Virus record (IMG/VR): IMGVR_UViG_3300042922_000344
Location: 1-47,838 of that record
Direction: 5' to 3' (one strand)
Source of the DNA: a virus
DNA length: 47,838 nucleotides
Each line of letters begins with the position of its first letter. Position 1 is the first letter of the stretch. Shown one piece after another: positions 1 to 45,932 of this stretch. The position numbers were made by a program, and so were the translations under genes. The notes under the pieces are model-generated. The model was not told where the DNA came from and ran no database searches. It worked only from the letters and a program-made list of their open reading frames with translations.

Positions 1-14
1 TTATTATAGCCTAT

Positions 15-42
15 TTATTGGGAAAAACCCAACAACCAATAA
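15..42. repeat. Nested inverted repeats in the junction region
   Basis: TTATTGG (15-21) is the reverse complement of CCAATAA (36-42), with TGGG/CCCA (19-22, 28-31) nested inside. In the circular molecule this is further enclosed by GGGCCG at 47700-47705 and CGGCCC at 49-54. The shape is typical of an origin, centromere or protein-binding stem; which one cannot be told from sequence. Confidence 0.5.
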
Positions 43-88
43 GCCAAACGGCCCGCTGACCCAAAAACCCTGACTTTTAGAAGTGTCT

Positions 89-106
89 CGCGCGCACGTA
101 CGCGCG
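89..106. promoter_or_regulatory. GC-rich palindrome upstream of the partition operon
   Basis: CGCGCG-CACGTA-CGCGCG is an 18-bp palindrome with one mismatched pair, 32 bp before the start of the tandem RHH gene. It is a candidate operator or part of a parC-like centromere; plasmid actin-type loci usually place parC upstream of the operon. Function is inferred from position only. Confidence 0.4.
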
Positions 107-137
107 AACCATCAAGGGAGAGGAGCGGACTTTTGTT

Positions 138-470
138 TTGAAAAAACACGATATCAAATTTGCTGTGACTGTTGACGACAAACGAAAATTGATGCTGATG
201 GCATTTGATACGGATCTCTCGTTAACGCAATTTTGCTCGCAGCTTGTCCGGGAAGAACTTGTAAGATATCGCATGTATTCGAAAATAGCTTACCCAACTA
301 ATGGAGTGCTTATACATGTCAAATTGGAGGATGATTATTTTAAGATGGTGCAAACGTTGGCTGTGCAGTGGTTGCTGCCCTATCGCCAAGTTGTACATCG
401 ACTGGTAACTAACTATCTCAAAGAACCGAATCCAATTGACGTAATGGTAATTTCTTATACGGATCTTTAA
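138..470 (+). CDS. Tandem ribbon-helix-helix protein, partition-linked
   Basis: 110 aa with a TTG start, chosen because AGGAGCG lies about 11 bases upstream and no other in-frame start fits. The product appears to contain two ribbon-helix-helix units: residues about 7-43 (strand KFAVTV followed by two helices ending LVREEL) and about 56-93 (strand VLIHVKL followed by two helices ending LVTNYL). A single chain with two RHH units could bind an operator as a pseudo-dimer. It is the first gene before parM/parR, with only 38 bp to the parM start, so it is probably the operon's regulator or an extra centromere-binding adaptor. The RHH assignment rests on the pattern of strand and helix residues, not on a database match. 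Confidence 0.6.
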   Translation: MKKHDIKFAVTVDDKRKLMLMAFDTDLSLTQFCSQLVREELVRYRMYSKIAYPTNGVLIHVKLEDDYFKMVQTLAVQWLLPYRQVVHRLVTNYLKEPNPIDVMVISYTDL

Positions 471-474
471 ATGT

Positions 475-491
475 GTGGTCCAATGTACCAC
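475..491. promoter_or_regulatory. Inverted repeat before parM
   Basis: GTGGTCCA-A-TGTACCAC, 7 of 8 arm positions complementary, lies between the tandem RHH stop codon (470) and the parM ribosome site (496-502). It is a candidate binding site for one of the neighbouring RHH proteins. Confidence 0.4.
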
Positions 492-508
492 AAAACGGAG
501 GTAATATC

Positions 509-1477
509 ATGCAAAGTTCTGCTTTTATTGATTTAGGTTACGGATGGAGCAAAGGAATTGGGAATGGAAAACAGTTTTTTGAACCATCCGTGGTTGGAGA
601 CGCACGGCCATTGATGGATGAGCAGCAACGCGACGGGGATATGATCTACCATGATGATAATCAAACACTCTTTGTTGGCAGTCTTGCTCTGCGGCAAAGC
701 AAGATTCGTTACAATAGCACAGGCGAAAATAAAGCTGAAACGTGGACAACAGCCATTATTCTCAAGACGGCGCTTGCTAGCTTGTCCCCCACCGGTCCAG
801 TTAACCTCATTACAGGATTGCCTGTAGACTATTATATGAAGCAAAAAGAATCGATGGCGCAATTGATTGACGGATTAAATATATCCGGTGCGTACAAAGT
901 AAAATTCGCCAGGCAACATCAACTAGTTCGCTCCAATCCGCTGATTGCCCATTATAAGATCGTTCCGCAGCCGTTTGGCAGCGCGATGGACTATCTCTTA
1001 GATGGTCATGGCAATGTCGTGCGTATGGACGACGCCAAGAAGTCAATACTCGTGATCGATGTTGGCTACTACACACTCGACCTGCTCGAATTGGACGGCA
1101 TGGAGATTGGTAAGAATAGCCGGTCACCACATGGATTAGGCGTGGACACTGCTTACAACCTATTACACGGCTATCTCGTAGATATGATTGGTCGCGCGCC
1201 GGAGCGTTTTGAAATGGACCGCTATGTGCTTGCAGGTGAATATGCCGGTTATGACATTCGCCCACTTATCAAACACGCGTTTCAGGCACTTGCACAGCAA
1301 ATTTTATTAGAGATTGACAGCTTATCAAGCTATTACGAGTTATTTTTATTAACCGGGGGCTGTGCTCCGACAATTAAAGAGTTTATCGATCTTCCAAACT
1401 TGGTTGTGCTCAAAAATTCGCAGTTTGGCAACGTTCGAGGATACGGGAAAATTGGGGCACGGTTATGGTCGAAGTAA
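509..1477 (+). CDS. parM: ParM/StbA-type actin-like plasmid segregation ATPase
   Basis: 322 aa. This ATP-driven filament former pushes sister plasmids apart through its ParR-centromere partner. The actin fold is shown by phosphate-1 motif DLGYGWSKG near the N terminus, phosphate-2 motif VIDVGYYTLDLLELDG in the middle and the adenosine motif LLTGG towards the C terminus. The ATG at 509 is chosen over a GTG at 473 because CGGAGGTAA precedes it at the right distance. It overlaps the ParR-like gene by 13 bp, as expected for a co-translated partition pair. Its presence implies stable extrachromosomal inheritance. Confidence 0.88.
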   Translation: MQSSAFIDLGYGWSKGIGNGKQFFEPSVVGDARPLMDEQQRDGDMIYHDDNQTLFVGSLALRQSKIRYNSTGENKAETWTTAIILKTALASLSPTGPVNLITGLPVDYYMKQKESMAQLIDGLNISGAYKVKFARQHQLVRSNPLIAHYKIVPQPFGSAMDYLLDGHGNVVRMDDAKKSILVIDVGYYTLDLLELDGMEIGKNSRSPHGLGVDTAYNLLHGYLVDMIGRAPERFEMDRYVLAGEYAGYDIRPLIKHAFQALAQQILLEIDSLSSYYELFLLTGGCAPTIKEFIDLPNLVVLKNSQFGNVRGYGKIGARLWSK

Positions 1478-1701
1478 TCCGTGTGCGGCTAAGGAAAAAG
1501 AAAGACGATGATCTGCGTACGGTGTTCGAAGGATTGGCTGACGATCGAAGCGATGTGATACGCGCAGCATTGAGGGCATACCTATTTAACCAGCCAGAGC
1601 CTTCGACGATATCCACTAAGCCTGTCCCAAGGTTAGAAAAGAAGGAAAAGCCAGACGAAGCGGTCACTGGTGGATTAGATGATCTTTTGGGAAACTTTTA
1701 G
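1465..1701 (+). CDS. parR: ParR-like centromere-binding adaptor
   Basis: 78 aa overlapping the end of parM. The N-terminal part (VIRVRLRKKKDDDL, then two helices to about residue 42) fits a ribbon-helix-helix DNA-binding domain. The C-terminal tail is disordered and ends GGLDDLLGNF, a short hydrophobic/acidic tip of the kind ParR uses to dock on ParM filaments. Position directly after parM, size and architecture all support ParR; the family is too divergent to identify on sequence alone. Confidence 0.8.
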   Translation: MVEVIRVRLRKKKDDDLRTVFEGLADDRSDVIRAALRAYLFNQPEPSTISTKPVPRLEKKEKPDEAVTGGLDDLLGNF

Positions 1702-2281: not shown

Positions 2282-2299
2282 CTTCATCACCTCATATTA

Positions 2300-2328: not shown

Positions 2329-2336
2329 GTATAAAA

Positions 2337-2358: not shown

Positions 2359-2376
2359 ATGGATGAGGTGAATATT

Positions 2377-2776: not shown

Positions 2777-2804
2777 AAAAAATGCTGAAAATGGTTTACT
2801 TTTC

Positions 2805-11140: not shown

Positions 11141-12034
11141 TTACAGATACAAAAAAGGGAAGTCGAATGATATCTCGAAACTTCCCTGCGTACCTGTTAA
11201 TTTAAACTTGTTTTCTCCAGGTGCCAACGTGATCAGCTTGTGGTTCGTGTCGCCAAAAATTGACGATCCATTCTTTCGGCTAAACACGCCATCAAGCACA
11301 ATCGCATCATCAGCGCCGCTTTCGCCATCGTAGTGCCATTCATCGCCAGTCGTCTCGTTCGTGATCGTTAGTCCACTTGATACACCTTTGTAAGTGATCA
11401 TGAGATCAATAAACCGTGGATCAATCACAGCATCGCCTAAATTCCAGATTGAGAACTCTGTTTCCATGTGATCATAGCTGAAATCAATCAGATTGCCATC
11501 AGCGTCCTCTAAGGGAATGTTTTGGCTGAACTGCCATAGTTCGGATTCTAATGTAAATAGGTCTGTCAGAGAGCCAATAGAGAAGGCATACGGCATGAAC
11601 GTGACCATTGGAATGGTAGCAATTGAAACTGATGGCCCCTTATCCTCAAACGCAATCCTGTCTGACAGTCGCAAATCTTTCCATCGGCGTCCCGGGTTGT
11701 CCTCGTCAATGATGCTGAATGGCTTTTTACTATCGAATAGACGCAGTACATTCGTTTTTAAGAGTGCGAGATTGTACTTTGTTTCTTCGACGAGCATAAA
11801 CCGTGCAACCATATTGCGCGATCCATAAGTGGTGCCACCACGATCCTGCACGCCGTCAGCGCCAGGAATAGAACCACCGGTATTGTTGATTGGTGTCGGC
11901 GAATCAACATCAAAACTTAAAAAAACAAGATCCTGTATTTCGTCTAAGCGAATCGGATCCTGTCCTTCTCGTTCCAAGATTAAAGTTGTGTCATTGGCAC
12001 CGGTCAGTGCTTTGAAATCAGCCGAATACTGCAC
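11141..12034 (-). CDS. Distal tail protein (Dit, Sipho_tail family)
   Basis: 297 aa. Recognised by the N-terminal LDEIQDLVFLSFDVDSPTPI, by GRRWKDLRLS in the N-terminal half and by a C-terminal galectin-like segment ending SFEISFDFPFLYL, together with its place right after the tape measure. Dit forms the ring joining the tail tube to the baseplate. GTG start with GCAGGTGA upstream; overlaps the tape measure gene by 17 bp. Confidence 0.85.
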   Translation of the reverse strand: MQYSADFKALTGANDTTLILEREGQDPIRLDEIQDLVFLSFDVDSPTPINNTGGSIPGADGVQDRGGTTYGSRNMVARFMLVEETKYNLALLKTNVLRLFDSKKPFSIIDEDNPGRRWKDLRLSDRIAFEDKGPSVSIATIPMVTFMPYAFSIGSLTDLFTLESELWQFSQNIPLEDADGNLIDFSYDHMETEFSIWNLGDAVIDPRFIDLMITYKGVSSGLTITNETTGDEWHYDGESGADDAIVLDGVFSRKNGSSIFGDTNHKLITLAPGENKFKLTGTQGSFEISFDFPFLYL

Positions 12035-14840
12035 GTTGATTCACCTGCTTATCCTGCAGTTTATTAATGTCATCAATAACTGCTTTTGCTAACGTTTTGG
12101 AACCGACTTGCAGATTGATAATCGCCGGCCGTTTACTCAGTTCCGTCTGCTCCATGCTCGCCGTTACCTCTTGCTGTACGCTATCTAATCCGCTTGTCGA
12201 CAATTGGCTAGAGTAACTAAAGTCTGTCTGCTGTGGCGCAATTTGAGCCGCCTGCGCCATTCCCTGCGATGCCGATGCCACTTTGCTTTGCATACCGGCA
12301 ATACCATTCACAAGACCTTGACCGGTCATTTCGCCGACCCAGGCCATAAAACGAGATGGTGAATGGATCCCCAAAGCGCTCTGAATCTTTCCTTTAATGT
12401 TCCCAGCGATAGACATGATCTTGCTACCAACCGCACTAGCGAGTGAGCCAATCCCGTTGATTAATCCTTGGATGATGTTCTTGCCAATGCTAAATAGGTT
12501 AATCGCTTGCAGTGGATTTTTGATGAAGCCTACAACAGCACGGAAAGCTGAACTTGTAGCCGATTTTATGGCGTTCCAAGCGCTGCTGATTCCGCTTCTC
12601 ATGCCATCAACAAGCCCAATTACAGTACTTTTTATTCCACCCCATACTGATGATGCAACCCCTCTGATTGCTCCCCAAACAGCACTAGCAGCCGATCGGA
12701 TTGCATTCCAAGCTGAAGATAATCCACTTTGCAGTGCACTGGCCACGGCGATAATCACGCTCTTTATGCCATTCCAAATGGATGATGCAGCCACTTTGAT
12801 TCCGTTCCAAACGGCCACGACAACAGTTTTAATCACATTCCAAGCAGCAGAAAACAGTGTCTTATAAGCGTTCAATTCGCCAATAAAATATGCTTTAATG
12901 GCACCCCAAACAACAGATGCCACTGCTTTTATACCAGTCCATACTGCAGATAAAACGCTCTTAATCGTATTCCAAACGGCTGTGAACACCGTTTTATAGG
13001 CATTTAATTCAGCAGTAAAATAGGATCCTAGAGTATTCCATACGGTTGATGCAACTGATTTTATACCATTCCAAAGACCGGATAAGAATGATTTAATGCC
13101 ATTCCACGCTGCAGAGGTTGCAGATGTAATAGCACTCCATACTCCGGACATCATGGATACAAAACCATTCCACAACGAAGCTCCGGCGCTCACAATTGTG
13201 CTCCATAATCCTTTCAAAAATGACCAAATCGAATCCCAATTATTGATAATTATCGCAACTAACAACGCACCGGCAGCGGCAAGGAGAACCGGCCATGAGA
13301 CGAGAAAGGCTAAGAATCCACCCACAGCTCCGGCAATTGCACCTACAACGGTGATTAGTACCCCGATAACTGATGTGACTGCCATAATAGTAGGGGCAAG
13401 CGCAACGAATACTCCGATTACAGAGACAATAACCGCAATGATACTTGCTATAATTGGATGAGCTTTTAAAAATGAGCCAATCATTTGCGTAAATGGAACA
13501 AGAAACTTAAGTACAGCCGCTCCAACTGGAGCAAAGCCAACCGCTAAAGCTCCGATAATCTGAACTACGTTGCCAATAACAGAGATAACAGCTGGTGCGT
13601 TTTGTTTCACATAACCAATAAATTGTTGAAATTGTTTGTTCTGCCCTAACGTCTGCCCCCACGTCTTAAACGAGTTTGTCATACTGACAAGTGATGTCAT
13701 CATATCAGCTGAAGTAGATCCGAACGCCGAAAACATGCCCACGATGCCTAATGATAAGTTACCAACAATTTTCAGCAATTTAGGGCCATTGGTCGTTACA
13801 TAGTTAATGAAATTTTGAAACGCCTTCGATTTACCTACTGTCTCTGTCCATTTTAGAAACGATTGAGACATACCAAGCAATCCATTGCTCATTTTCTGTC
13901 CAAGTGGAACAAATGCCGTAAATAGATTCATCATTCCAAGCAGGAAGTTCATTCCTGCTTTGCCCATTGTTTCAAGGTTCGGGCCAATTGTCTGACCCAA
14001 TACCTTAAAAAAGTTAATAGCATCGGAAGATTTAAGCCCTTCGTTTAGTGAATTGACGAGATTTTCCACCGCTTGTGTGACTCCTTGAAAAGTGGGCTTA
14101 AGCATAATAAGAACATCTGACAGTGCACTTAATGCTTTTGTATAGATGCTGACCGTCTGAGACTTGAGTGGGTCTGTAATGCCTTGCCATACCTGTTTCA
14201 ATTTCTGGCTGGCTTCATAAGCGCGCTGCTCGGGCTTGTCCATACTATCCAAGATTGTTTTCTGCTGCTGCAACAGCTTATTACGTTCTTTAAGATCTTT
14301 GGTCATGTCAATCTTACTCTGTAGATCAGACATCTTTTTCATCTTTTCGAACATATCGCCCAAATTAGCAGAAGCAACCGCACTAAAAGCACCAATTCCG
14401 GCTCCTGCCATAGCGAACGAAGTTCCCAGTGCTGCGGCGCCACCTGCAGCCACGCCAAGAATCGGACCAAGTGAACCAATGCCAGCTACTAAAGATGCAA
14501 TAGCCGGAACGCCAGCGGAACTAATGGACAGTGCAAAGCCAGAGATAACACTTTGTCCAACTGTTCCAAATGTACGTATTCGAGTGGCTAAGCTATCTAA
14601 ATCATCTCCGAATTTATCCCATCGTTTATCTACTTTGGCATGAATCTCGACAGTTTTGTCTCTTATTGACTTTAGCTCTGCCTTAACTTCAGCTATTTTC
14701 GTAGTCACCGGTCTGATATTTCCGTCGATATCTATTCTGTTTCCAGTCGCGGTAGTGTGCATGATTTTGCTCACTTCAGCCATCTTTGCTTTAAACTCGC
14801 TGATCTTCGCTCCGACAAATGCCGTCAGGTTCTTATTCAT
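12018..14840 (-). CDS. Tail tape measure protein
   Basis: 940 aa after AAGGAGGGTGAGCC. The N-terminal half is Ala/Gly-rich and helical with hydrophobic stretches (for example about residues 110-160 and 460-530). The centre carries many repeats of the type W-x-x-I-K-S-x-x-S-x-x-W (about residues 545-780), the usual tape-measure signature. It sets tail length and is injected ahead of the DNA; the length predicts a tail of roughly 140 nm by the usual 0.15 nm per residue rule. The repeated coding produces antisense open frames that are not genes. Confidence 0.93.
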   Translation of the reverse strand: MNKNLTAFVGAKISEFKAKMAEVSKIMHTTATGNRIDIDGNIRPVTTKIAEVKAELKSIRDKTVEIHAKVDKRWDKFGDDLDSLATRIRTFGTVGQSVISGFALSISSAGVPAIASLVAGIGSLGPILGVAAGGAAALGTSFAMAGAGIGAFSAVASANLGDMFEKMKKMSDLQSKIDMTKDLKERNKLLQQQKTILDSMDKPEQRAYEASQKLKQVWQGITDPLKSQTVSIYTKALSALSDVLIMLKPTFQGVTQAVENLVNSLNEGLKSSDAINFFKVLGQTIGPNLETMGKAGMNFLLGMMNLFTAFVPLGQKMSNGLLGMSQSFLKWTETVGKSKAFQNFINYVTTNGPKLLKIVGNLSLGIVGMFSAFGSTSADMMTSLVSMTNSFKTWGQTLGQNKQFQQFIGYVKQNAPAVISVIGNVVQIIGALAVGFAPVGAAVLKFLVPFTQMIGSFLKAHPIIASIIAVIVSVIGVFVALAPTIMAVTSVIGVLITVVGAIAGAVGGFLAFLVSWPVLLAAAGALLVAIIINNWDSIWSFLKGLWSTIVSAGASLWNGFVSMMSGVWSAITSATSAAWNGIKSFLSGLWNGIKSVASTVWNTLGSYFTAELNAYKTVFTAVWNTIKSVLSAVWTGIKAVASVVWGAIKAYFIGELNAYKTLFSAAWNVIKTVVVAVWNGIKVAASSIWNGIKSVIIAVASALQSGLSSAWNAIRSAASAVWGAIRGVASSVWGGIKSTVIGLVDGMRSGISSAWNAIKSATSSAFRAVVGFIKNPLQAINLFSIGKNIIQGLINGIGSLASAVGSKIMSIAGNIKGKIQSALGIHSPSRFMAWVGEMTGQGLVNGIAGMQSKVASASQGMAQAAQIAPQQTDFSYSSQLSTSGLDSVQQEVTASMEQTELSKRPAIINLQVGSKTLAKAVIDDINKLQDKQVNQRAVFG

Positions 14841-14843
14841 GGC

Positions 14844-15272
14844 TCACCCTCCTTTCTTTTGAAATGACGATCTGTTCAAAGCATTTTTCAATCGCTGATA
14901 TCGATCATGGTCAAGTGCCGTCCGTCCCGATGATTCTTTCCAGTTGCTTAACTGCCGGTCAATTCGTTTGTGCGCTTCTTTTTCATCAAACATTTTGCGT
15001 TTTCGTGCACGCTTCGCGTTGGTGGCATAGCGATTAAACATAGCTCCCGTTGCCATACGATCGTATTCATCAGCCTGAGCATGCTGTGCGCCACGACAAA
15101 AAGCCTTGAACTCATTTGGAGTCCAAGACATGATTAAATCGGGGTCATATACTTTTAATAGGCGTGCTGCATCGGAAAAAATTTGCTGATAATCAGTTAC
15201 GCGAGAATCTCTTTTCTCTGGTCTGTTAACATTTTCTTGGCCAGGTTCGCTTGCTTCACTTCGTCCTTTTTC
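14844..15272 (-). CDS. Tail assembly chaperone, frameshift extension (gpT-like)
   Basis: This reading frame is open from before 15314 to 14844 and has no convincing ribosome site, and it lies in the -1 frame of the preceding gene. A -1 slip near 15266-15272 would fuse it to the upstream ORF to give a product of about 268 aa. This is the G/GT arrangement found between tail tube and tape measure genes in long-tailed phages. The extension is basic and rich in Arg/Lys/Glu, as expected for a part that coats the tape measure during assembly. Confidence 0.75.
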   Translation of the reverse strand, partial: EKGRSEASEPGQENVNRPEKRDSRVTDYQQIFSDAARLLKVYDPDLIMSWTPNEFKAFCRGAQHAQADEYDRMATGAMFNRYATNAKRARKRKMFDEKEAHKRIDRQLSNWKESSGRTALDHDRYQRLKNALNRSSFQKKGG

Positions 15273-15649
15273 TCCTCGTCTACCATTTTGTCGATCGAGT
15301 TCACGTTTTTCCAATATTCGCGAAGCTGGAGTTTGAAAAAACCCGATTCATCAAGCGCCTTGAACGACTCTTTAAATAGCCGTTCCGTCCCTTCTGATTC
15401 AACCACGACTTCAAGAGCGTCGTTGATATCATCACAGATCGGTTGATCTTTTTTGAGGTAAGCAAGTGCGCAATCCCAAAAAGCTGATAGGCCACGTGTA
15501 CGATAGTTTAGCAGATCTTCATAAATCTTTTCAAGACCTGTGTTTCCTTCTTTTTTATCCTTAGGCGCATATTTTTCATTCGCTCTTTTATCAAATGCAA
15601 AAGCGAGTTTAGCTTCATATTGTTTTTTTTTGATATTTAAAATTGGCAT
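15197..15649 (-). CDS. Tail assembly chaperone (gpG-like)
   Basis: 150 aa between major tail protein and tape measure genes, helical and charged. Position and the overlapping downstream frame identify it as the unshifted tail chaperone. Starts MPILNIKKKQYEAKLAFAFD, ATG at 15649. Confidence 0.8.
   Translation of the reverse strand: MPILNIKKKQYEAKLAFAFDKRANEKYAPKDKKEGNTGLEKIYEDLLNYRTRGLSAFWDCALAYLKKDQPICDDINDALEVVVESEGTERLFKESFKALDESGFFKLQLREYWKNVNSIDKMVDEEKKDEVKQANLAKKMLTDQRKEILA
15266..15272 (-). other. Candidate -1 ribosomal frameshift site
   Basis: On the minus strand the zero-frame codons are GAG AAA AAG GAC, giving the heptamer GAAAAAG. The A-site codon can re-pair perfectly after a -1 slip (AAG to AAA), while the P-site first base mismatches. 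It lies 69 bases before the gpG stop and inside the overlap. The span 15649-14844 plus one repeated base is divisible by three, as a -1 fusion requires. Confidence 0.45.
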
Positions 15650-15668
15650 GAGTTAACCTCCATATAAT

Positions 15669-15692
15669 TAAAAAATAGGGGATTTCTCCCCA
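15669..15692 (-). terminator. Leftward terminator after the major tail protein
   Basis: GGGG-AGAAAT-CCCC on the minus strand followed by TATTTTTT, 5 bp past the stop at 15697. It probably lowers expression of downstream tail genes relative to the abundant tube protein. Confidence 0.75.
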
Positions 15693-15696
15693 TTGA

Positions 15697-16440
15697 TTAA
15701 GCAGTTACTGTTACTTCACAAGTTGCAGTTTTAGTCTGATCAGCGTTAGATTTCACTGTGATTGTAGCTGTTCCAACAGCTACAGCAGTTACAAGACCGC
15801 TACTAGATACCGTTGCAATAGCCGGATCACTTGATACATAGGATACTGTCTTATCGGTTGCATCAGCCGGTTGAATTGTCGATGTCAACTGTTGCGTACC
15901 ACTAACTGTCAGAGATACTGTCGTCGGTGCCGCAGTTAAGCCTGTAACCGCAATTGCTCCTGTCTCTCCTGGAGTTTCAAATGCATACTGAGCCAGTTCA
16001 ACAACTTCCGGATCCAAGTCCATTTCTCCGTCTTGAGACTGTCCCTGCACTTGAATTGACACATCACATTCTGCAAATCCATCAGATGGAAATGAAGGGT
16101 TAAATTCTTCGATCAGTACATACGCAAAGGTTGCATCGTGTTTCCCATTAGCATTAGCGTCAACGTTGACTTCCCACATTTTCAATTTCTTATGATTTTT
16201 GCGCGCATCTTTAAGCAGCTTCTGACCACCATCTTCAGTAGCCATAAAGAATGTCATATCTGCGCTTTCTTCATCTTGTGCATATTCAAGAACGCGGCCA
16301 TTTTTCGTTTGTTCGTCAGCTAGATCACCGGCATAATCGTGTGATCCATCTGTTTGAAATCCAGGAAACAACGCATCAGATCCAACCGGCGCTGAAGTAT
16401 CTTGAAATAAAAAGATGATCTTTTTACCGCTTACTGGCAT
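15697..16440 (-). CDS. Major tail (tube) protein with C-terminal Ig-like (Big2) domain
   Basis: 247 aa. Residues 1-155 resemble TP901-1-type tail tube subunits (MPVSGKKIIFLFQDTSAPVG at the start). The last 80 residues form a bacterial Ig-like group 2 domain (VSLTVSGTQQLTSTIQPADA, then VSYVSSDPAIATVSSSGLV). Such a domain decorates the tail surface and may give weak binding to cell-surface glycans. Gene order (connectors, tube, chaperones, tape measure) supports the call. Confidence 0.9.
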   Translation of the reverse strand: MPVSGKKIIFLFQDTSAPVGSDALFPGFQTDGSHDYAGDLADEQTKNGRVLEYAQDEESADMTFFMATEDGGQKLLKDARKNHKKLKMWEVNVDANANGKHDATFAYVLIEEFNPSFPSDGFAECDVSIQVQGQSQDGEMDLDPEVVELAQYAFETPGETGAIAVTGLTAAPTTVSLTVSGTQQLTSTIQPADATDKTVSYVSSDPAIATVSSSGLVTAVAVGTATITVKSNADQTKTATCEVTVTA

Positions 16441-16453
16441 TTTGTTTACCTCC

Positions 16454-16885
16454 TCATAAAATCCAAAAATTTAGTTCCAAAATTCCGTGTTTCGATTTGC
16501 CATCAATGTCTGTAATTACATCTGGACGTCCCGGAACAAATCGAGCAATAGTAAAGCCACCCTCAAGCGAGAGTGGCGTTTTCAAAGCTTCAAAGATTAA
16601 GTTCATTAGGTCATAGGTTTCCTTGTGCCCTGCATACCGGCTGTAGGTGTTTAGCGTCATCGTGATGTTCTCGCCGAATGATGACTTTGTATCAAACTCA
16701 TTGTTGGTCGATAAGTCAATTTGAACATATGGAAAGACTGTCGGCTTTGCGTTCCCAGTCGTGTCAATGTACTCCAGTGGTACATCATCAAACACGCCGA
16801 CAACCTTGCTCATCAATAGCTGATAGCTTGTCAGTTTCTGAAAAATAGCCTTTTGCAAAGCGAACAAAGACGTCCGCACAGGCAT
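16454..16885 (-). CDS. Tail terminator / minor tail protein
   Basis: 143 aa. The ATG at 16885 overlaps the upstream stop (TGATG). The sequence (FPYVQIDLSTNNEFDTKSSF, TMTLNTYSRYAG) resembles DUF3168-type tail completion proteins. It would cap the tail tube at the head-proximal end. Assignment relies on gene order plus moderate sequence recognition. Confidence 0.75.
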   Translation of the reverse strand: MPVRTSLFALQKAIFQKLTSYQLLMSKVVGVFDDVPLEYIDTTGNAKPTVFPYVQIDLSTNNEFDTKSSFGENITMTLNTYSRYAGHKETYDLMNLIFEALKTPLSLEGGFTIARFVPGRPDVITDIDGKSKHGILELNFWIL

Positions 16886-17316
16886 CACCCCAATTTGTTC
16901 ATGGCACTTGCGAAGTGCATAGATCCAGAAGTCATAGCCTTATCAAAGAAGTGTGTTGCACGCATACCGCGAGTCATAACCCACCTGCCAAGTTCTTCGC
17001 TGTAGTACACCCACGGAATTTTCTTAGCTGATGAACCGCCTGGTCCAGATGCGTAAATTCCTGTTCCATAATTAACATAAATCCCATATGAAGCGTCTAC
17101 ATGTACAATAGCAGTCAATCCATCATCGAAATAGTCAGCTTGGATTGATTTTTTCAAATTACTTGTATCAGTTGGAGCATTAGCTTTGGCAATAGACACA
17201 ATCATCTCGGCTGTTTCGGCAATTACTCTTTTTACTTCTGCAATATACTGTTTCTCAAACTTCTCAATGGTCAATTCGAACCCCTTATCGCCATACGTGA
17301 CACGACCTTTAGCCAT
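16885..17316 (-). CDS. HK97 gp10-like tail completion protein
   Basis: 143 aa. Contains the family pattern of an N-terminal helix rich in AETAEMIVSIAKANAPTDTS followed by LKKSI and YGIYVNYGTGIYA (the 'VEYGT' motif), typical of HK97 gp10. It acts in head-tail joining or neck assembly. Overlaps both neighbours. Confidence 0.87.
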   Translation of the reverse strand: MAKGRVTYGDKGFELTIEKFEKQYIAEVKRVIAETAEMIVSIAKANAPTDTSNLKKSIQADYFDDGLTAIVHVDASYGIYVNYGTGIYASGPGGSSAKKIPWVYYSEELGRWVMTRGMRATHFFDKAMTSGSMHFASAMNKLG

Positions 17317-17680
17317 TTAGCTCATCCCCAGTCACTTGGATCAGCATTTTTTCATGTTGTCCTCCTTGATCGAGCGGACGGCTCTTAATCGCAACGATGG
17401 GCCCATCATCAAGTAGTACACGCATATTTGGCTTGATATCCGTCCGGTACGGAAAATAAATCTCCTTGTTGATCGGATTGACTGTCTGCCCGGCTTGTCC
17501 AAATTCCTGACCGGATATGTCCGTTACGAGTGCCGGATAAGTTCCAGGATCACCGTCAATATTCGTCCATCCACCATCAATCCAACCACCGGCACCATCC
17601 GAAACAAGGCCTTGCTTCTGAAAAATGATCTTATGAGGAAACTCATCATAGGGACTGAAATTCATCTTCGTCATAAGCAT
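17309..17680 (-). CDS. Head-tail adaptor / head closure protein
   Basis: 123 aa, ATG after AAGGTG. Beta-rich with the signature PHKIIFQKQGLVSDGAGGWI near the N terminus and KPNMRVLLDDG later, as in SPP1 gp16/HK97-type head closure proteins. Overlaps the gp6-like gene by 10 bp. Confidence 0.82.
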   Translation of the reverse strand: MLMTKMNFSPYDEFPHKIIFQKQGLVSDGAGGWIDGGWTNIDGDPGTYPALVTDISGQEFGQAGQTVNPINKEIYFPYRTDIKPNMRVLLDDGPIVAIKSRPLDQGGQHEKMLIQVTGDELNG

Positions 17681-17991
17681 CGGAATCGCACCTTTTTATA
17701 AGGGCGCAGGAGCTTCGCTACGCTGCCCGGAAGTTCTGTGTTAAAAGAATACGAGACATTGCCTAAAGACCGAGATTTCAAGCGAGAATCGCCCATATCG
17801 AATTCCAAAGCTTTAGCCAAGTAACGAATGATTCCGGATGGCAGATTGCTAATGTCGAATGTGTTGTTGCACTGCTCTTGCACATCATCGACAATCAGCG
17901 GAATCACAATATTAAGATAGTCATCCTTCGAATTGTCTGCGATGCCAAGCATCACTTTTATTGTATTGAGCAAATCGGAAGGCACGGCCAT
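17671..17991 (-). CDS. gp6-like head-tail connector
   Basis: 106 aa. Starts MAVPSDLLNTIKVMLGIADN with later DDYLNIVIPLIVDDVQEQCN, the pattern of phage gp6-like connectors. ATG at 17991 follows GAGGTGGTC; an in-frame TTG at 18009 has no ribosome site. It forms the first ring under the portal. Confidence 0.85.
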   Translation of the reverse strand: MAVPSDLLNTIKVMLGIADNSKDDYLNIVIPLIVDDVQEQCNNTFDISNLPSGIIRYLAKALEFDMGDSRLKSRSLGNVSYSFNTELPGSVAKLLRPYKKVRFRCL

Positions 17992-18001
17992 AATGACCAC
18001 C

Positions 18002-18193
18002 TCACTCAATTACTTTTTGTTTTTCGTAGTCCTCAACAAGAGCAGCATCAACTAGTGCTGATTCGCCTTTCTTGTATCGCTTGTCGTTGCCGCATTTCAC
18101 ATTTTTAGTGAATGTAACCTTTTTGCGTTTTGGCTTGCTTTCTTCCGGAGTAGTTTGCTCCGTTTCCTCTGCTGTTTTTACTTCTTCAGCCAT
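18002..18193 (-). CDS. Small protein between capsid and connector
   Basis: 63 aa after AGGAGG. Glu/Thr-rich N terminus, then a basic stretch (KPKRKKVTFTKNVKCGNDKR) and YKKGESALVD. Many Firmicute phages carry a similar short gene after the capsid gene. No function is established. Confidence 0.72.
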   Translation of the reverse strand: MAEEVKTAEETEQTTPEESKPKRKKVTFTKNVKCGNDKRYKKGESALVDAALVEDYEKQKVIE

Positions 18194-18206
18194 TTATAAA
18201 ACCTCC

Positions 18207-19247
18207 TCAGGCAACAGTTGCCACAAAAATTTGATCGATCGTTTCAAAGGACGGAAGCGTGATCTCAGAAACTTTAGTTATTTTGTTCACCGGATCCGCT
18301 TCATCATAAGTCGTGATTGCGACACCAGTATTCACGATGCGCACTTGTGCCGATGTAGCACCGGCCATGAGGTCAGCTTCTTCAGGCGTATTTCCATAAT
18401 ATGTGCTGCCAAGGTTTCCAGCTGGGATCAGAGAGATCTTGTCATCCGGGAAGAAGTTCTTTTTTGCACCTGTTTCGTCAATGAATTTGTTGTTGTATAC
18501 CGCAAATGTCATGCTAAGTTTGTTTGTGAGATATTGCTGCAGCATGCTGTTCGTTACAATGATGTTCTGACCTCCGATCGGATTCATATCCAAGCGAATG
18601 CTCTTGTTCGCCATCAGATATCCCCATGTTTTCCGGGATACGATCGCACGAGCAGGACGTACACCCGTGTCATCCTCAGCCGTGTCCTGCCAAGCAATGA
18701 TGTCTTGGATCGGCGTAGAGTTTTCAGTGTCGCTCCATCTAGCCGTATCAGTCAGAGTTTCTTTGTGTTCATCAGACATCTTGTAGTCATAGTCCAGTGC
18801 CTGTCCATTTGCTGAGATAGCAATCTTTCCGGTAGACAGCAGCTGCATAATCATCCGTTCCGGCTGCACATTGGCGCCTTTAACGAGATTGCCTGCATCA
18901 TCAAAAATCTGTGTAATGATTGCATTGACCGCCGGGCTGTTTTGGTTCTGTGCGAATTTCAGCAGTTCCTGGCGCAGGCGTTCCTTAACGGTCATAGATT
19001 CCTTGAAAAACGGCATTTCCGTCTGAATTTCAGAAAGTCCGATGCGATCACGAACCGTTGCCTTTGCATCAAAAGCAGACGGTTTCAGAGCGATTGGAAG
19101 ACCTGACGCGCCTTTAATCCAGCTGAGATCCAATCCAAGCTGTTTCTTTGCCGGAAATAGTGTTGCTCCGAGATAGGGTACTTGTGGTTGAGATTCGACG
19201 TACGCGCCGATGTCATTTGCGTTGACAAGATCAAAAATACTAGCCAT
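18207..19247 (-). CDS. Major capsid protein (lambda gpE-like, E family)
   Basis: 346 aa. Begins MASIFDLVNANDIGAYVESQ and contains ARAIVSRKTWGYL and NIIVTNSMLQQYL, characteristic of the phage major capsid protein E family with an HK97-type fold. The ATG at 19247 is chosen over 19256 because AAGGAGG lies 10 bases upstream instead of abutting. Preceded by decoration and scaffold genes in the usual order. Confidence 0.92.
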   Translation of the reverse strand: MASIFDLVNANDIGAYVESQPQVPYLGATLFPAKKQLGLDLSWIKGASGLPIALKPSAFDAKATVRDRIGLSEIQTEMPFFKESMTVKERLRQELLKFAQNQNSPAVNAIITQIFDDAGNLVKGANVQPERMIMQLLSTGKIAISANGQALDYDYKMSDEHKETLTDTARWSDTENSTPIQDIIAWQDTAEDDTGVRPARAIVSRKTWGYLMANKSIRLDMNPIGGQNIIVTNSMLQQYLTNKLSMTFAVYNNKFIDETGAKKNFFPDDKISLIPAGNLGSTYYGNTPEEADLMAGATSAQVRIVNTGVAITTYDEADPVNKITKVSEITLPSFETIDQIFVATVA

Positions 19248-19262
19248 TGTTTTCATTCCTCC

Positions 19263-24152: not shown

Positions 24153-24356
24153 TCATTTGGTTAGTACTTCGTAAAGGTTGATATATTTGTCTAATAACTC
24201 AGCTGCTACACATTTTTCACAGTTATCAAGCGATTTGTTAATACTCTCATCAAGATGATGGAGAGTCGCAAACGCTTCTTCACACGCTTTTTCAAATTGA
24301 TCGTCGGTTTCATCAGTGGTCATAACCCCTGTTTTCTCATCATAATTGACAGGCAT
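24153..24356 (-). CDS. Small hypothetical protein after portal
   Basis: 67 aa. ATG overlaps the portal stop (TGATG). Acidic, with a helical Cys-containing segment (LDNCEKCVAAELLDKYINLY). Unknown; placed between portal and MuF genes. Confidence 0.68.
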   Translation of the reverse strand: MPVNYDEKTGVMTTDETDDQFEKACEEAFATLHHLDESINKSLDNCEKCVAAELLDKYINLYEVLTK

Positions 24357-25759
24357 CACGTTTCACCTTCCTCGCTTTGACTAGGCTGATTGTTTGGATC
24401 AACCGGTGGCAGATTCGCCGCGTATTCGTCTTTCTCTTTCTGCATCTCTTCTAGTTCTTTATCGACATCAGGCACAAATGATAGCTGTGACAGCCGTGTA
24501 CGCTCGCTGACACGTCCCTGCAGCTGTGCAGATGTTGTTGCTTCAGAAGCTACATCAGCCGGAAGGTTGCGAGTGAAAGTGAATGTCACACCTAGATAGT
24601 CATCTAAAGCGCATAGCCCCTTCTTTGCCCATGCTGAACAGAGCACTTTGAATTGGTATCGAAGTGCTGATGTGAATTTTCGCTCCATGTTGATGCACTT
24701 ATTTTCTAGTGCAAGCAATTTGAATCGCATAGCTACACCACTTTGGTTCCCTGCAAATTCCTCATCACCAAAGTTTACCGATTTGGCATATCGTAGGATA
24801 TTTTGTTCAAGCCGGTTAAGATGATGCTCAATCAAGTCATCGTTTACCTCTTTATTGAGATACTTAATATCCTGGTTCTCATCATAGAGTTCAAAGATAC
24901 CCGTCTTTTTCAGCTTTGCTATATCCTCTTCATCGAGGTCAGCGCCTTTGAGTACCAAGTAAGCTAGTCGATACTGTTCGATCTCGTTGCTTGCATCGCT
25001 AAGTGTGCGGTCATAGGCGTCAATCAGGCTTAATACCTTCTCTGCATCGCCCTTTTGCTCTTGATTGTTTGGAACGCCAAACAAAGGGTTATAGTCAAAT
25101 AGGTGTTCCTTTTGGTCTTTAAGCTGTAATCCGTCTGATTCATCATCAAAATAGTAGACATCTGTTTCGTCGTAGAACTCCACATAAAGGTGTGATCCTT
25201 TGTCGGCATCATCCAATCGGTAATAGTAGAGTGAGTAATCCGGATGTGTGATGTCCTTGCCGATGAATACCACATGCCAAGGCTCGATGTCCTCAATGTT
25301 CGGCTTACCTTCTGTGTCGATATAAGCAAGACGCGCCGCATATCCACAGATCGCCGCATACTTTCCACATTCAGCATCTTGATCGGCTGAATTGCTCCGC
25401 AACAAAAAGTCTTGAATCTCCTGTTTCCACGTGTCCTTTGCGTTGTCTGCCCTATACGTGATCGGATGACCAAACATATAGCCAACCTTGGTGTCAACTA
25501 TCTCTGAATCAAAACTGTTATTGAGCATGTTATTTACTTTGTCATCAAGACGAAAGACGTTTTTAGATGGCCCGGCTCCGTAATCGATCGGTGATCGATT
25601 AAAGATCTTCGGCCCGTCTTTCTGGTCAGCAATATAGCGATGATAAAGCCGCTTCATCCGTTTATGATCGGCTTTGTGATCGCTGATGATTTCTTGTACT
25701 GTTTCAACCGTGATGCCATTTTCTTGAATTCTCTTGATATATTTAATAAATGGATTCAT
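24356..25759 (-). CDS. Portal protein (SPP1 gp6-like)
   Basis: 467 aa. Sequence features of SPP1-type portals: MFGHPITYRAD near residue 95, EPWHVVFIG, SLIDAYDRTLSDASNEIEQY, and LEQNILRYAKSVNFGDEEFA followed by SGVAMRFKLLALENK. It forms the dodecameric DNA entry ring and terminase docking site. Overlaps the TerL gene by 17 bp. Confidence 0.93.
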   Translation of the reverse strand: MNPFIKYIKRIQENGITVETVQEIISDHKADHKRMKRLYHRYIADQKDGPKIFNRSPIDYGAGPSKNVFRLDDKVNNMLNNSFDSEIVDTKVGYMFGHPITYRADNAKDTWKQEIQDFLLRSNSADQDAECGKYAAICGYAARLAYIDTEGKPNIEDIEPWHVVFIGKDITHPDYSLYYYRLDDADKGSHLYVEFYDETDVYYFDDESDGLQLKDQKEHLFDYNPLFGVPNNQEQKGDAEKVLSLIDAYDRTLSDASNEIEQYRLAYLVLKGADLDEEDIAKLKKTGIFELYDENQDIKYLNKEVNDDLIEHHLNRLEQNILRYAKSVNFGDEEFAGNQSGVAMRFKLLALENKCINMERKFTSALRYQFKVLCSAWAKKGLCALDDYLGVTFTFTRNLPADVASEATTSAQLQGRVSERTRLSQLSFVPDVDKELEEMQKEKDEYAANLPPVDPNNQPSQSEEGET

Positions 25760-26981
25760 CGTTTTCCCTCCTTCCTATCCTGCGCTGTGCTGGACGATTA
25801 TTCGTGTATATTCCGTATCTGAGAGCGTCGAGTACGTCGTCCCACAGCTTCACAGGTTCGCCGGTCGTTTCGTTCCACACATACATATAAATTTCTTTTT
25901 TAAAACGCTGTACACGTTCATTGACGATAAATAGCTTGTTTTGTTTAAACAGTCGAGCGACTTCTTCAATCCCTGCGATTCTCGACTTGTCTCCGTTAAT
26001 TGCACGAATATGTTCCCGTCTTAACCGTTTAATGTGTTCTGGCCGCGCTGTATCGCAATAAAAATGGATGTTGCCGTAGCGCTCTTTCACGCCCATTGCA
26101 ACATCCACCCAATAATCAATTTCTTCATGCTGTTTTGCATGTTCTTCGATTAAATAAAAATCTCCTTGATCATCTTCACCGATCACGACGATGGCGCCAT
26201 AGTGCTCATAACCAAAATCGACACCAGCAAAATATTTTACAAAGTTTATATCTTTCAACTTCGATTCGTTGACGTAATGAATTTTTTGATTGAAGTCCTT
26301 GTAGACAACGCCTTCAGCGGCGCACCAGACACCATTGATGTCGCGATCATAAAACATTCCGCTTGGTGTTGTGGCTTTTATGTTTTCCCTGTACCGTTCA
26401 TTGAGAAATGTATTGTCATCAAGCACATAATGAAAATCAACAATGCTTTTATCTGGATTGTCAATGTAATCACGTTTCAACCAATGTTCTGGCTGATCCG
26501 GGTTGGTATCAATCAGAAGCCTTGCACCAGTCGCTGAACAGCGCGACTTAATTTCGTTGAATACTTCTTCGTTAGCCAATGACGCTTCGTTGACATATGC
26601 GCCATAAGCCGTCATACCACGAATACGGCTTAAATCATTGATCTTGCTGTGCCCGGTGCAGACAACAAGCACGCCGAATAACTTGAATCGGTTGTACTTG
26701 TCCATATGAAAGCCGATTCCGTACTTGTTAGTCAACTCAATCATGACGTTCTTCGCCAAGTTTCCCAAATTGGCACCAGCAAGAATATACTGTGGATTTT
26801 CTACTCCCTCATTTGTCGCTATTCGTTTGACACGCTTTAATTCATATAGGAATAGATCATTGTCAACCACCGTTTTTCCCGTTCGCTTGGCGCCGTGATT
26901 AATCAGCATGAAAAAATCATGATTAAACGCATACCGGAGCACCTCTTGCTGTTTCGGCGTATATAGTTTATTCAGGCTCAT
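25743..26981 (-). CDS. terL: Terminase large subunit
   Basis: 412 aa. ATPase Walker A HGAKRTGKT near residue 30 and Walker B region YGAYVNEASL. The nuclease domain has FAGVDFGYEHYGAIVVIG (first Asp) and FYCDTARPEHI (second acidic site). Resembles PBSX XtmB/SPP1-type enzymes, which use headful packaging. ATG at 26981 follows GAGGAGG inside the end of terS. Confidence 0.93.
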   Translation of the reverse strand: MSLNKLYTPKQQEVLRYAFNHDFFMLINHGAKRTGKTVVDNDLFLYELKRVKRIATNEGVENPQYILAGANLGNLAKNVMIELTNKYGIGFHMDKYNRFKLFGVLVVCTGHSKINDLSRIRGMTAYGAYVNEASLANEEVFNEIKSRCSATGARLLIDTNPDQPEHWLKRDYIDNPDKSIVDFHYVLDDNTFLNERYRENIKATTPSGMFYDRDINGVWCAAEGVVYKDFNQKIHYVNESKLKDINFVKYFAGVDFGYEHYGAIVVIGEDDQGDFYLIEEHAKQHEEIDYWVDVAMGVKERYGNIHFYCDTARPEHIKRLRREHIRAINGDKSRIAGIEEVARLFKQNKLFIVNERVQRFKKEIYMYVWNETTGEPVKLWDDVLDALRYGIYTNNRPAQRRIGRRENDESIY

Positions 26982-27714
26982 TAGTGAACGCCTCCTCGAG
27001 CTTGTCAAGGAGATTTCCTAGCTTGTCCTCTGTCTTTGCTCCGGTATCCGTTGTAGCCCGTATCTGGTCAATACGAGCCTGAACAAGTTCAAGCTTATGA
27101 TGACGTTCGTCAAATTCGTCAGTGATCTGTAAGAACTGTCTAATGGATGTCCTTAACTCACTAATCGCTCTGCTTTGAGCATTTAAAAAAGCTGCCTGTT
27201 TTTCATAGGCGAACCTTACTTCGTATTTATCAGCACCAGAATCACCCCATCCAGATTGGCTTTGCTCCTTAGATAAGTCATCAGCATTATTCACAAGCAT
27301 AATTTTCTGTGAACGAATGATTGCAGTGTACTGAATAACAATTTGATCCCAAAGCAAATCCTCTGGTTTTCTTCCAGCGATTGTTTCCATAATCTCTTTA
27401 TATTCTTCCGGCAGATACTTGGAAAGAAAGCCGAATTTCTCAGCAGCTTTGTTCCGTTTGGCAAATTGGTTTTTCGGGTTATGGTTGCCACTTCTCTTGC
27501 TCGGCGCACGTGCCTGCTTCTTACCTTTCTGTTTCGGAGTACTCCGTTTATCCGTTTGGAGTACTCCGTTCCAATTGTCTTTTGACTTCCATCCTCCAAT
27601 TGTCTTTTCGGGGACTTCTAACTGTCTTGCTATCTCACGATTCGTGATCTCGCCTTTACATTCTTTCCACATCTTAAAGGCTTCATCACGCCGGGGATCT
27701 CTTTTCCTTGGCAT
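26968..27714 (-). CDS. terS: Terminase small subunit (XtmA/YqaS-like)
   Basis: 248 aa. N-terminal HTH (FKMWKECKGEITNREIARQL, EVPEKTIGGWKSKDNW) is typical of PBSX XtmA-type TerS. A basic linker (STPKQKGKKQARAPSKRSGN) and a C-terminal oligomerisation/TerL-binding region follow. It selects phage DNA at pac. Two palindromes within the gene (27535-27567) are candidate pac/TerS sites. Confidence 0.9.
   Translation of the reverse strand: MPRKRDPRRDEAFKMWKECKGEITNREIARQLEVPEKTIGGWKSKDNWNGVLQTDKRSTPKQKGKKQARAPSKRSGNHNPKNQFAKRNKAAEKFGFLSKYLPEEYKEIMETIAGRKPEDLLWDQIVIQYTAIIRSQKIMLVNNADDLSKEQSQSGWGDSGADKYEVRFAYEKQAAFLNAQSRAISELRTSIRQFLQITDEFDERHHKLELVQARIDQIRATTDTGAKTEDKLGNLLDKLEEAFTNEPE
27535..27567. 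repeat. Paired palindromes within terS (candidate pac site)
   Basis: CGGAGTACTCCG (27535-27546) and GGAGTACTCC (27558-27567) are perfect palindromes with centres 22 bp apart, two helical turns, so a dimeric protein would see both on one face. pac sites of headful phages commonly lie inside or next to terS. Confidence 0.5.
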
Positions 27715-32896: not shown

Positions 32897-33109
32897 TCAC
32901 CCTTTCATCAGCATCATGTTTCCAATGCCGCCTACTCTCATTTGTTCATCCACTTGAAACCAGCGCTTGCCACCTCGTTGAACAACAATTCCTTCATAGG
33001 CAATGCCACGTGGAGAAAAGATTGTTGCTTTATCTCCGACTTTCACACGCTGCCCTATATAGTCATGTGTTGGTATGCGAAATGATGGATCATTTTTGTA
33101 TGTGCTCAT
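32897..33109 (-). CDS. Small beta-barrel-like hypothetical protein
   Basis: 70 aa; ATG overlaps the helicase-loader stop (ATGA). The stretch QRVKVGDKATIFSPRGIAYE followed by GIVVQRGGKRWFQVD looks like a small SH3-type barrel. Unknown. Confidence 0.68.
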   Translation of the reverse strand: MSTYKNDPSFRIPTHDYIGQRVKVGDKATIFSPRGIAYEGIVVQRGGKRWFQVDEQMRVGGIGNMMLMKG

Positions 33110-34029
33110 TCGTGCATCCCTCTCTGGCTTGGTCCTTCAAATACGAAACAACGCTCATAAGCCATGCCCTTCAATAGTCGATCTGCCGCAGCGTAGCCAA
33201 TCCGTTCAGCCAAAGATGCTTTATCCTCATTACTCGAGAAGATGATTGGCTTACGTGACCGATACCGCGAATCAATGATCTGATAGTAAAGATTCTCTTT
33301 GGATTCTGACGGCTTCGCTTTGCCGATGTCATCCCATACAAGAACTTCTGTCCTCTGAACGCCGTTTAGCAGCTGTCTGAGCCGTTCTCCTTGGTCATTC
33401 ATCATCTTGGCTTGTGTAAGTTCATCCATGAGCACAGCGTCCGCTACGACCAGTACACTGTATCCTCGCTTGAGCAATCGCTTAGCTGACGCAACTTGAA
33501 GATGCGTTTTACCGATGCCGAAATTGTTATGCTCTGCCTTCGCCTGTGCTTTCTCAGCCATCGTTTGCAGATTACGTATGTTCTGCTCGCCAAATGATGC
33601 GATAAAACCGAAACTGTTATTCTTGCTATCTTTAATTGAATCAAAGTCTCTGAGATAGTCGGTAATCTTTTGATACATGTCACGCTGCCATTGAAATTCC
33701 TGACGAAAGTTCGTGAACTGTGCTTCTTTAAATTCATCCGGAATCATAGAGTCTTTAAAAAGGTTGTCCATACGCGCTTTCTTCACGCATTCGCATTCTC
33801 CATAGATTGGTGTGTACCACCATTCACCGTTTTTGTGCTTCTTGTTCTTCTCGATTTCAGCGCCTTGTTTAACAATCACCACACCGGTGTCTTTGCAGAT
33901 TGGGCAATCATAATCAGTTCCAGACGGCTTTTGCGGCTGCGACTTCTTTGAGTGATTCTTCATAACTTTTTGCTGCAGGTCGGCCATGATAGCTTCGAAT
34001 GTTTGAAACGTTGGCTCTCTTTTTGCCAA
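33106..34029 (-). CDS. DnaC/DnaI-like helicase loader ATPase
   Basis: 307 aa from TTG 34029 (ATG 33987 is the alternative). An N-terminal zinc-binding segment (CPICKDTG ... GECECV) is followed by an AAA+ domain with Walker A NNFGIGKTHLQ, Walker B VLVWDDIGK and sensor IIFSSNED. It loads the replicative helicase onto the phage origin with the DnaD-like initiator, whose gene it overlaps by more than 100 bp. About 20 Lys/Ala/Gln-rich residues are inserted just before the P-loop, which is unusual. Confidence 0.88.
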   Translation of the reverse strand: MAKREPTFQTFEAIMADLQQKVMKNHSKKSQPQKPSGTDYDCPICKDTGVVIVKQGAEIEKNKKHKNGEWWYTPIYGECECVKKARMDNLFKDSMIPDEFKEAQFTNFRQEFQWQRDMYQKITDYLRDFDSIKDSKNNSFGFIASFGEQNIRNLQTMAEKAQAKAEHNNFGIGKTHLQVASAKRLLKRGYSVLVVADAVLMDELTQAKMMNDQGERLRQLLNGVQRTEVLVWDDIGKAKPSESKENLYYQIIDSRYRSRKPIIFSSNEDKASLAERIGYAAADRLLKGMAYERCFVFEGPSQRGMHE

Positions 34030-34705
34030 GCTGATCAGTCCTTTCCGTTTCATAGGCCTGCGCTTGTTCTAGTGTTCTAACCTTTTTGTTAAACCAGTCT
34101 TTTAAAATGCTCTTCACATAGCCAAATGACCGTTTATTTCGTTCTAATGAAATTTCCATAGCATATATAAGAGCATCAGGTTCAACGTCATTAGACCAAC
34201 TTGCGATTTGTTCACCAACAAACGATGAAATCAATCCGAAGTTATTTTCATAAAATTTAATGACTTTTGAGATACCGTCGTCGGTATTTTTGTTATTCAT
34301 TTCTTGTTCTTCTAAGTTCTTATTATTAGGGTCCATTTTTTGGACTACCCGTGGTCTACTTTTTGGACTGGGGTGGTCCATTTTTTGGACTACACCTATA
34401 TCAAATAAATGATAAATATTGCTCTGATGATTTCCCTTTTCAGATATGCGATATTCTTTAACAACGAGTTTCATATTGATAAGGCGATTCATCGAATCAA
34501 TAATTGTTTGTTTTGAATTGCAACAGCAGTATTTTTGTAATGTTGGTAGTGACGGAAATACGCTGCTTTTACCAAAACTAAATTTGATCATGGACATGTA
34601 GAGCAACTTATCAACCGGGCGCTGAAATACCTCTGATTCGAAGATACGATTGTCAATCTGTGTGTATGGAATATCGAACGTTCTATGCAGTTCGTTTGCC
34701 ATCAT
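33914..34705 (-). CDS. Replication initiator with HTH and DnaD-like domain
   Basis: 263 aa from ATG 34705, which overlaps the upstream stop. The N-terminal winged-helix (SVFPSLPTLQKYCCCNSKQT, MNRLINMKLVVKEYRISEKG) is followed by a linker containing two VVQKMD repeats, encoded by the origin iterons. The C-terminal DnaD/DnaB2-like helices are FYENNFGLISSFVGEQIASW and DALIYAMEISLERNKRSFGY. It binds the origin and recruits the helicase loader encoded next. Confidence 0.87.
   Translation of the reverse strand: MMANELHRTFDIPYTQIDNRIFESEVFQRPVDKLLYMSMIKFSFGKSSVFPSLPTLQKYCCCNSKQTIIDSMNRLINMKLVVKEYRISEKGNHQSNIYHLFDIGVVQKMDHPSPKSRPRVVQKMDPNNKNLEEQEMNNKNTDDGISKVIKFYENNFGLISSFVGEQIASWSNDVEPDALIYAMEISLERNKRSFGYVKSILKDWFNKKVRTLEQAQAYETERTDQLGKKRANVSNIRSYHGRPAAKSYEESLKEVAAAKAVWN
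34330..34393. repeat. Origin iterons inside the initiator gene
   Basis: Three repeats: GGTCCATTTTTTGGACTAC at 34330-34348 and 34375-34393 (identical) and a diverged GGTCTACTTTTTGGACTG at 34353-34370. Spacing is 23 and 22 bp. Each perfect copy contains the palindrome GTCCA-N5-TGGAC. Position in the linker of the initiator gene is where many Gram-positive phages keep their origin. Confidence 0.75.
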
Positions 34706-35256
34706 GAATCGCCAACTTTCGGTGAAATAGACGATTCGATCATTTGGAATACATCTTCTGCACATTTTCTCGGATCGTTATAAATTTCACTACCGGTAAA
34801 GTGCATTGTCTTATAGCCTTCCATTTGAATGTTTCTATCGCGCTCTTTATCATGTTTTGCTTGTTCTTTTGTCTTTTCATGAAAGTCATGACCATCACAT
34901 TCAACGATGACCCTAACAGATTCTTTATTATTGGTTTCGAATATTTCTGCGATAAATATGTCTGCTCTGTATTTGTGCCCATTAGCAAGTATTTCTTTTT
35001 GTGTTTGTGGAAAAAAGTCTCTGGCATATTGATAATTAAGAAGATCAAGTTGCTCTTTAATTGATCTGAATAAAACGAACTCAATTGGTGAATCACAGTG
35101 TTCATATTGGGCAATTAGTTGTGCCATTTCTGCGTAAATTTCCGGATAAATAGTCTTTTTCACTATTTCAGGGTATTTAGCAATTCGCATAGACAACTCC
35201 TTTATCGAATCGCCCATTTGCTCAGCATTTTCACAATCATCCATTTCTCTGATCAT
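34702..35256 (-). CDS. PD-(D/E)XK nuclease-like protein (Vsr/DUF559-like)
   Basis: 184 aa from ATG 35256 after GAGAGGGCATGATGCA. The C-terminal half has the core of a Vsr/DUF559-type endonuclease: SPIEFVLFRSI, HKYRADIFIAEI (Asp), RVIVECDGHDFHEKTKEQAK (E-x-D/H region) and MHFTGSEIYNDPRKCAEDV. It is likely to nick or cut DNA. Co-translated with the initiator gene (ATGA overlap), which suggests a replication or recombination role. Confidence 0.75.
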   Translation of the reverse strand: MIREMDDCENAEQMGDSIKELSMRIAKYPEIVKKTIYPEIYAEMAQLIAQYEHCDSPIEFVLFRSIKEQLDLLNYQYARDFFPQTQKEILANGHKYRADIFIAEIFETNNKESVRVIVECDGHDFHEKTKEQAKHDKERDRNIQMEGYKTMHFTGSEIYNDPRKCAEDVFQMIESSISPKVGDS

Positions 35257-41853: not shown

Positions 41854-41858
41854 TTTCA

Positions 41859-45914: not shown

Positions 45915-45932
45915 TTTAAGGAGATGATTAAA

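Follow-up and report, generated by a model that had tools for sequence, protein, structure and literature searches.

The window, meaning the whole 47,838-nt stretch of viral DNA that was analysed, carries an actin-type partition cassette on one side of a probable attP and a large serine integrase on the other. The cassette runs from an Arc-like gene through a non-coding leader and the gene of a 110-aa protein to parM and a candidate parR, and it shares the molecule with the genes of a siphovirus (Table 1).

Table 1. Features of the window, with their positions and the basis of each assignment
Feature	Position	Strand	Basis or remark
Conserved non-coding leader	1..137; on the circle 47646-47711 then 1-137	+	Invariant hairpin and octads
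Probable parC/operator, octad array	28..69	+	Duplicate copy 47739-47780 in terminal overlap
Conserved 110-aa protein, upstream of parM	138..470	+	phrog_5779
ParM, actin-like ATPase, 322 aa	509..1477	+	Pfam, PHROG and PDB profiles
ParR candidate, 78 aa	1465..1701	+	Position, size, conservation
Siphovirus structural module, major capsid to tape measure	12018..19256	-	
Portal, terminase large and small subunits	24356..27714	-	
DnaC-like helicase loader	33106..34053	-	
DnaD-like helicase loader / replication initiation protein	33914..34765	-	Temperate-phage type
Lysogeny control: HTH repressor-like gene and IrrE/ImmA-type M78 protease	41407..42278	+	
Exchangeable integration module (integrase and attP)	45929..47425	.	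Homologous flanks on both sides in L005
Large serine integrase, 479 aa	45933..47372	+	Resolvase, Recombinase and Zn-ribbon domains
Probable attP, 50-bp imperfect palindrome	47373..47422	.	Directly after integrase stop codon
Arc-like small protein, 56 aa	47475..47645	+	phrog_3180, 7e-6

Partition genes, leader and octads

ParM is matched by the Pfam family ALP_N (6e-21), by a PHROG partition protein over its full length (2e-47) and by the PDB profile of pCBH ParM (6e-10). The nucleotide motifs DLGYGW, DVGYYTLDLL and LTGG, corresponding to phosphate-1, phosphate-2 and adenosine, are kept in nearly all relatives. The protein is under purifying selection, with a dN/dS of ~0.05-0.08 among the nearer relatives, in some pairs of which synonymous sites are near saturation. 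The ParR candidate, whose gene overlaps parM by 13 nt, is conserved in the relatives with a basic N-terminus and a C-terminal LDxLL..F motif. Its resemblance to RHH proteins is weak (a Pfam RHH_1 match at E=0.045, below the cut-off, and weak PDB profile matches) and its fold prediction is not confident (pLDDT 58), so the assignment rests on position, size and conservation. Of the actin-type partition pair that a sequence-only reading had placed at 509-1701, ParM is upheld by its profile matches, while ParR stands as a candidate.

The 110-aa protein upstream of ParM is predicted to form a strand-helix-helix unit twice, which may represent a tandem RHH-like fold; the prediction and the fold model are both of low confidence. 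The dN/dS of its gene is ~0.05-0.09, and here too some pairs approach saturation at synonymous sites. The Arc-like gene was considered as a recombination directionality factor, a role that is disfavoured because a change of integrase type leaves the gene in place beside the partition cassette. Beyond parR, a LexA-type DNA-binding domain that stands alone, lacking the protease part, is encoded on the minus strand at 2081-2281; S. kofuensis has kept it too, likewise downstream of parR.

The leader between the Arc-like and 110-aa genes is 73-91% identical to the leaders of closer relatives. Within it, upstream of the parMR operon, lie six CC dinucleotides at an exact spacing of 8 bp. Elsewhere in the window this octad pattern does not recur, and 100 shuffles failed to produce it; it occurs once in each of the five cassette loci compared, only upstream of the partition cassette. 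In the relative STSJ-5, whose ParM is 61% identical, the bases between the CC steps have changed and the 8-bp period is kept. The array is predicted to be parC and, with it, the operator, and probably serves as both. The leader gave no significant match in Rfam, and the covariation term was unfavourable to its being a covarying RNA; only hairpins and octads are therefore claimed, and no new RNA.

The circle and its integration module

Positions 1-127 are 100% identical to 47712-47838, the sole end overlap of the contig, which leaves a circle of 47,711 bp. Since 127 is a usual assembler k-mer, the terminal 127 bp can be read as a circular-assembly overlap. A second IMG/VR contig of 13,470 bp, L004 (3300042923_001063, from metagenome 3300042923), spans the join unbroken, following the window from 41036 to 47838 and then from 1 to 6794 at 100% identity. 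The exact k-mer-like overlap and this independent contig rule out a biological repeat, and as L004 crosses the join without a difference, the circle is real as an assembly product. The claim of a circular contig made from the 127-bp overlap is thus borne out. Circularity does not show an episome, because permuted packaged DNA or replicating DNA assembles in the same way; the contig could be lytic or virion DNA.

The siphovirus gene set that had been read on this circle is likewise present, with genes for packaging, particle, tail and lysis: both terminase subunits, portal, major capsid, tape measure, major tail protein and endolysin. The M78 protease beside the HTH repressor-like gene probably controls lysogeny through repressor cleavage. 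The window is best read as a complete temperate siphophage with site-specific integration as its route to lysogeny, and its relatives suggest a Sporolactobacillus-type host. At the DNA level, window 23000-47838 was without a match in the phage collection. The early gene region holds a Type II hammerhead ribozyme (38463-38527, minus strand; 47 bits against a gathering score of 37). Inside the tail module a GDSL/SGNH hydrolase is encoded at 8305-9030 on the minus strand; the S. kofuensis prophage encodes a relative of it (39%).

The serine integrase matches phrog_95 at 8e-139, and its best phage relative is that of Anoxybacillus phage A403 (52%). All three domain types are present, so that the full integrase of the sequence-only reading, which had given 45933-47425 for integrase and attP candidate together, proved complete. 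The attP candidate pairs at 19 of 25 positions, the best among all 50-bp windows of the contig. In 20 Markov-chain shuffles the best palindromes scored 15-19, and as one of them reached 19, the location of the candidate, right at the integrase stop codon, carries as much weight as its score.

A close mosaic relative, L005, which is 99.5% identical over the terminase region, helps to place the site. Its DNA homology with the window ends at 45928, just before the integrase start, and resumes at 47426. In place of the serine integrase and attP, L005 carries a tyrosine integrase with paired GCGGTCA-type (arm-type) repeats on either side. This break in homology indicates that integrase and attP were exchanged as a unit and also locates the probable attP. 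The swap from serine to tyrosine integrase is precise and leaves the partition cassette intact. A search for attB with the 13-bp core CTCTGGGTAGAGC gave no exact match in any of 28 family genomes, and none of the nearest serine-integrase relatives has a matching attP.

Integrated relatives in Sporolactobacillus

In a genome scan and family searches, the high-identity cassette was found in Sporolactobacillus only, in 3 of 28 family genomes and 2 of 300 sampled genomes of the order; Anaerobacterium chartisolvens holds a 40% ParM relative. The S. terrae prophage interrupts comGA: the part of the gene for the C-terminal half lies ahead of the Arc-like, 110-aa, parM and parR genes, and that for the N-terminal half comes after the tyrosine integrase, ~49 kb away. 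The prophage of STSJ-5 lies between bioY and rpsI, and a copy of the rpsI 3' end is present at each of its edges; the integrase occupies one edge and parR lies near the opposite one, the cassette being inverted. The S. kofuensis contig of 41,775 bp begins in the 3' half of a tRNA, continues with the cassette and ends just past the integrase. Inspected by eye, the anticodon loop of this tRNA reads Arg-TCT. Another contig ends with that tRNA half as well, so the integrated and excised states are indistinguishable there. The relatives are chromosomal at two clear sites (S. terrae and STSJ-5) and one probable site (S. kofuensis).

Further details of these prophages were observed. That of S. terrae (L006, contig G001:C34) breaks comGA within the MIMIGEIRDEE segment, and a different prophage (L065), with a 45% related serine integrase, also ends in comGA; with two unlike prophages ending there, comGA looks like a recurrent attachment gene. 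The S. terrae tyrosine integrase (L020-L021) has an in-frame stop; this prophage may thus have lost the ability to excise, unless the stop is a draft error. The left attachment region of STSJ-5 (L025, G003:C3, ~11309-11503) holds a copy of the integrase 3' end together with the rpsI 3' end, a sequence arrangement that reads as the footprint of an earlier or tandem integration.

In the five related elements the cassette always lies at the att-bearing end opposite to the integrase, though the integrases differ. The five loci share ancestry, and their shared position does not amount to five independent observations, the inversion in STSJ-5 notwithstanding. Structural genes vary widely among the cassette-bearing Sporolactobacillus prophages. 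The att-adjacent cassette in all relatives, its retention through the integrase swap and the conserved octads had all been missed by the sequence-only reading.

Proposed role and known systems

On balance, the window is probably a temperate phage of the integrating kind, in which ParMRC acts on the excised circle. Such a role is suggested by the full-length ParM with its nucleotide motifs and purifying selection, the octads, the integration of relatives and the retention of the cassette through integrase exchange. SrpMRC, which stabilises SXT/R391 ICEs, offers a precedent, its authors holding that partition is needed only in the transient excised state (PMC4489591). ParR would bind the octads, perhaps aided by the upstream small proteins, and ParM filaments would capture the ParR-octad complex, moving and segregating the phage circle. 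Partition would act while the circle is extrachromosomal, just after infection or after excision, and would keep the circle until it reintegrates or the lytic cycle starts. In the integrated prophage the locus would be idle or repressed.

A possible, if somewhat unlikely, alternative is that the cassette forms a lytic-cycle cytoskeleton like AlpAC, which would anchor the circle once it is excised and replicating, or move it, perhaps to the membrane, and raise phage DNA yield without distributing the circle to daughter cells. AlpC, the product of the first CGP3 ORF, is induced early upon excision, and phage copy number falls by half when it is lost (PMC4446434). Bacillus phage vB_BboS-125, which lacks an annotated integrase, has a close ParM homologue, and distant ones occur in many SPO1-like Bacillus phages, so a phage ParM need not mean prophage segregation. 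Gene order separates the two cases: in CGP3 the adaptor precedes the actin gene, an order from which its authors argue against segregation (PMC4446434), whereas here parM precedes parR and an iteron array lies upstream, as in plasmid ParMRC. By analogy, this arrangement would tilt the balance towards segregation.

A more tentative proposal, and a rather doubtful one, is that the att-anchored ParMRC guards a non-lytic, reversible excised state resembling active lysogeny, in which comGA, for example, would be restored; selection on the cassette would then be independent of the integrase. If this were true, the prophage could exit and re-enter the chromosome through cell divisions.

Partition genes are usually read as a sign of a plasmid prophage, and the sequence-only reading had called the molecule a phage-plasmid. 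A true phage-plasmid with an optional integrase, whose lysogen is mainly a circular plasmid that integrates at times, would fit a circular contig backed by a second one, and ParM-like and RHH genes mark the plasmid prophages of Bacillus cereus group phages (PMC8026635, PMC6669507). Permuted virion or replicating DNA, however, also yields circular contigs. Moreover, relatives with the same cassette are integrated, two of them chromosomal and the third bounded by a tRNA half, and no plasmid replication initiator was found among the proteins scanned, larger non-structural ones included. The sole replication genes found are the DnaD-like and DnaC-like pair, of ordinary temperate-phage type, so a stable plasmid prophage is unsupported and the phage-plasmid label is improbable on this evidence. 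An undescribed initiator or an RNA-based origin may be present, the latter being known in mycobacteriophages (PMC7157519). At the DNA level, the parMR region (window 1-2400) has no match in 72,556 plasmids. A circular contig with parM is insufficient to name a phage-plasmid. It is very unlikely that the cassette is passenger cargo with no current role, acquired at the att end when excision was imprecise or cassettes were exchanged. Prophage ends often carry cargo and the cassette is rare, but the low dN/dS of ParM and the 110-aa gene, the conserved octads and retention through integrase exchange all speak against it.

The sequence-only reading was right to place ParMR and a serine integrase together with a set of phage genes on one circle; the rarity that it attached to partition with integration needs qualifying, since their co-occurrence has precedents (PMC4489591, PMC4446434, PMC4490671). 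The combination of partition and integrase on one phage has already been noted: a glacial phage has ParAB and an integrase (PMC4490671), and a C. difficile chromosomal prophage has phage-plasmid features (PMC10993401). No description of an att-anchored ParMR cassette with octads retained through integrase exchange was found in the literature searched. Two cultured strains, S. terrae DSM 11697 and S. kofuensis NRIC 0334, carry relatives, so that active segregation of the excised circle, a role proposed for SXT/R391 ICEs, can be tested directly in an integrating phage.

A comparison with known systems shows which parts are shared. SrpMRC likewise belongs to an integrating element and has an actin-type parM followed by parR, upstream cis repeats and a position near the integrase. 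It differs in that srpMR share the int operon, while the phage parMR lies across attP from int with a leader of its own; in addition, its carrier is a conjugative element and no phage, SrpR has no recognisable domain, and the binding repeats differ (PMC4489591). CGP3 AlpAC of Corynebacterium glutamicum resembles the present locus in its integrated prophage, actin-like first ORF, DNA-binding adaptor and upstream cis repeats, and differs, beyond its gene order, in that its shown role is replication and CGP3 is cryptic (PMC4446434). Phage vB_BboS-125 has the closest ParM among deposited phages (51%) and a ParR-like gene downstream (52%), but no upstream octads, and its remaining genes are unlike those of the window (an annotated tail sheath, for example).

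Plasmid prophages of the Bacillus cereus group (B83, phiS58 and others) are siphophages that also combine ParM with a small RHH adaptor. Unlike the phage described here, which has a large serine integrase, a probable attP and DnaD/DnaC-like replication genes, they are plasmids, and B83 encodes a RepA-like initiator together with Xer-type recombinases (PMC8026635, PMC6669507). The cluster A mycobacteriophages with parABS are also temperate phages with partition, and the parS of RedRock consists of eight copies of an 8-bp motif, a repeat reminiscent of the octads. Their system is of the ParA type and takes the place of the integration cassette (PMC7157519); in contrast to this mutual replacement, partition and integration coexist in the present phage.
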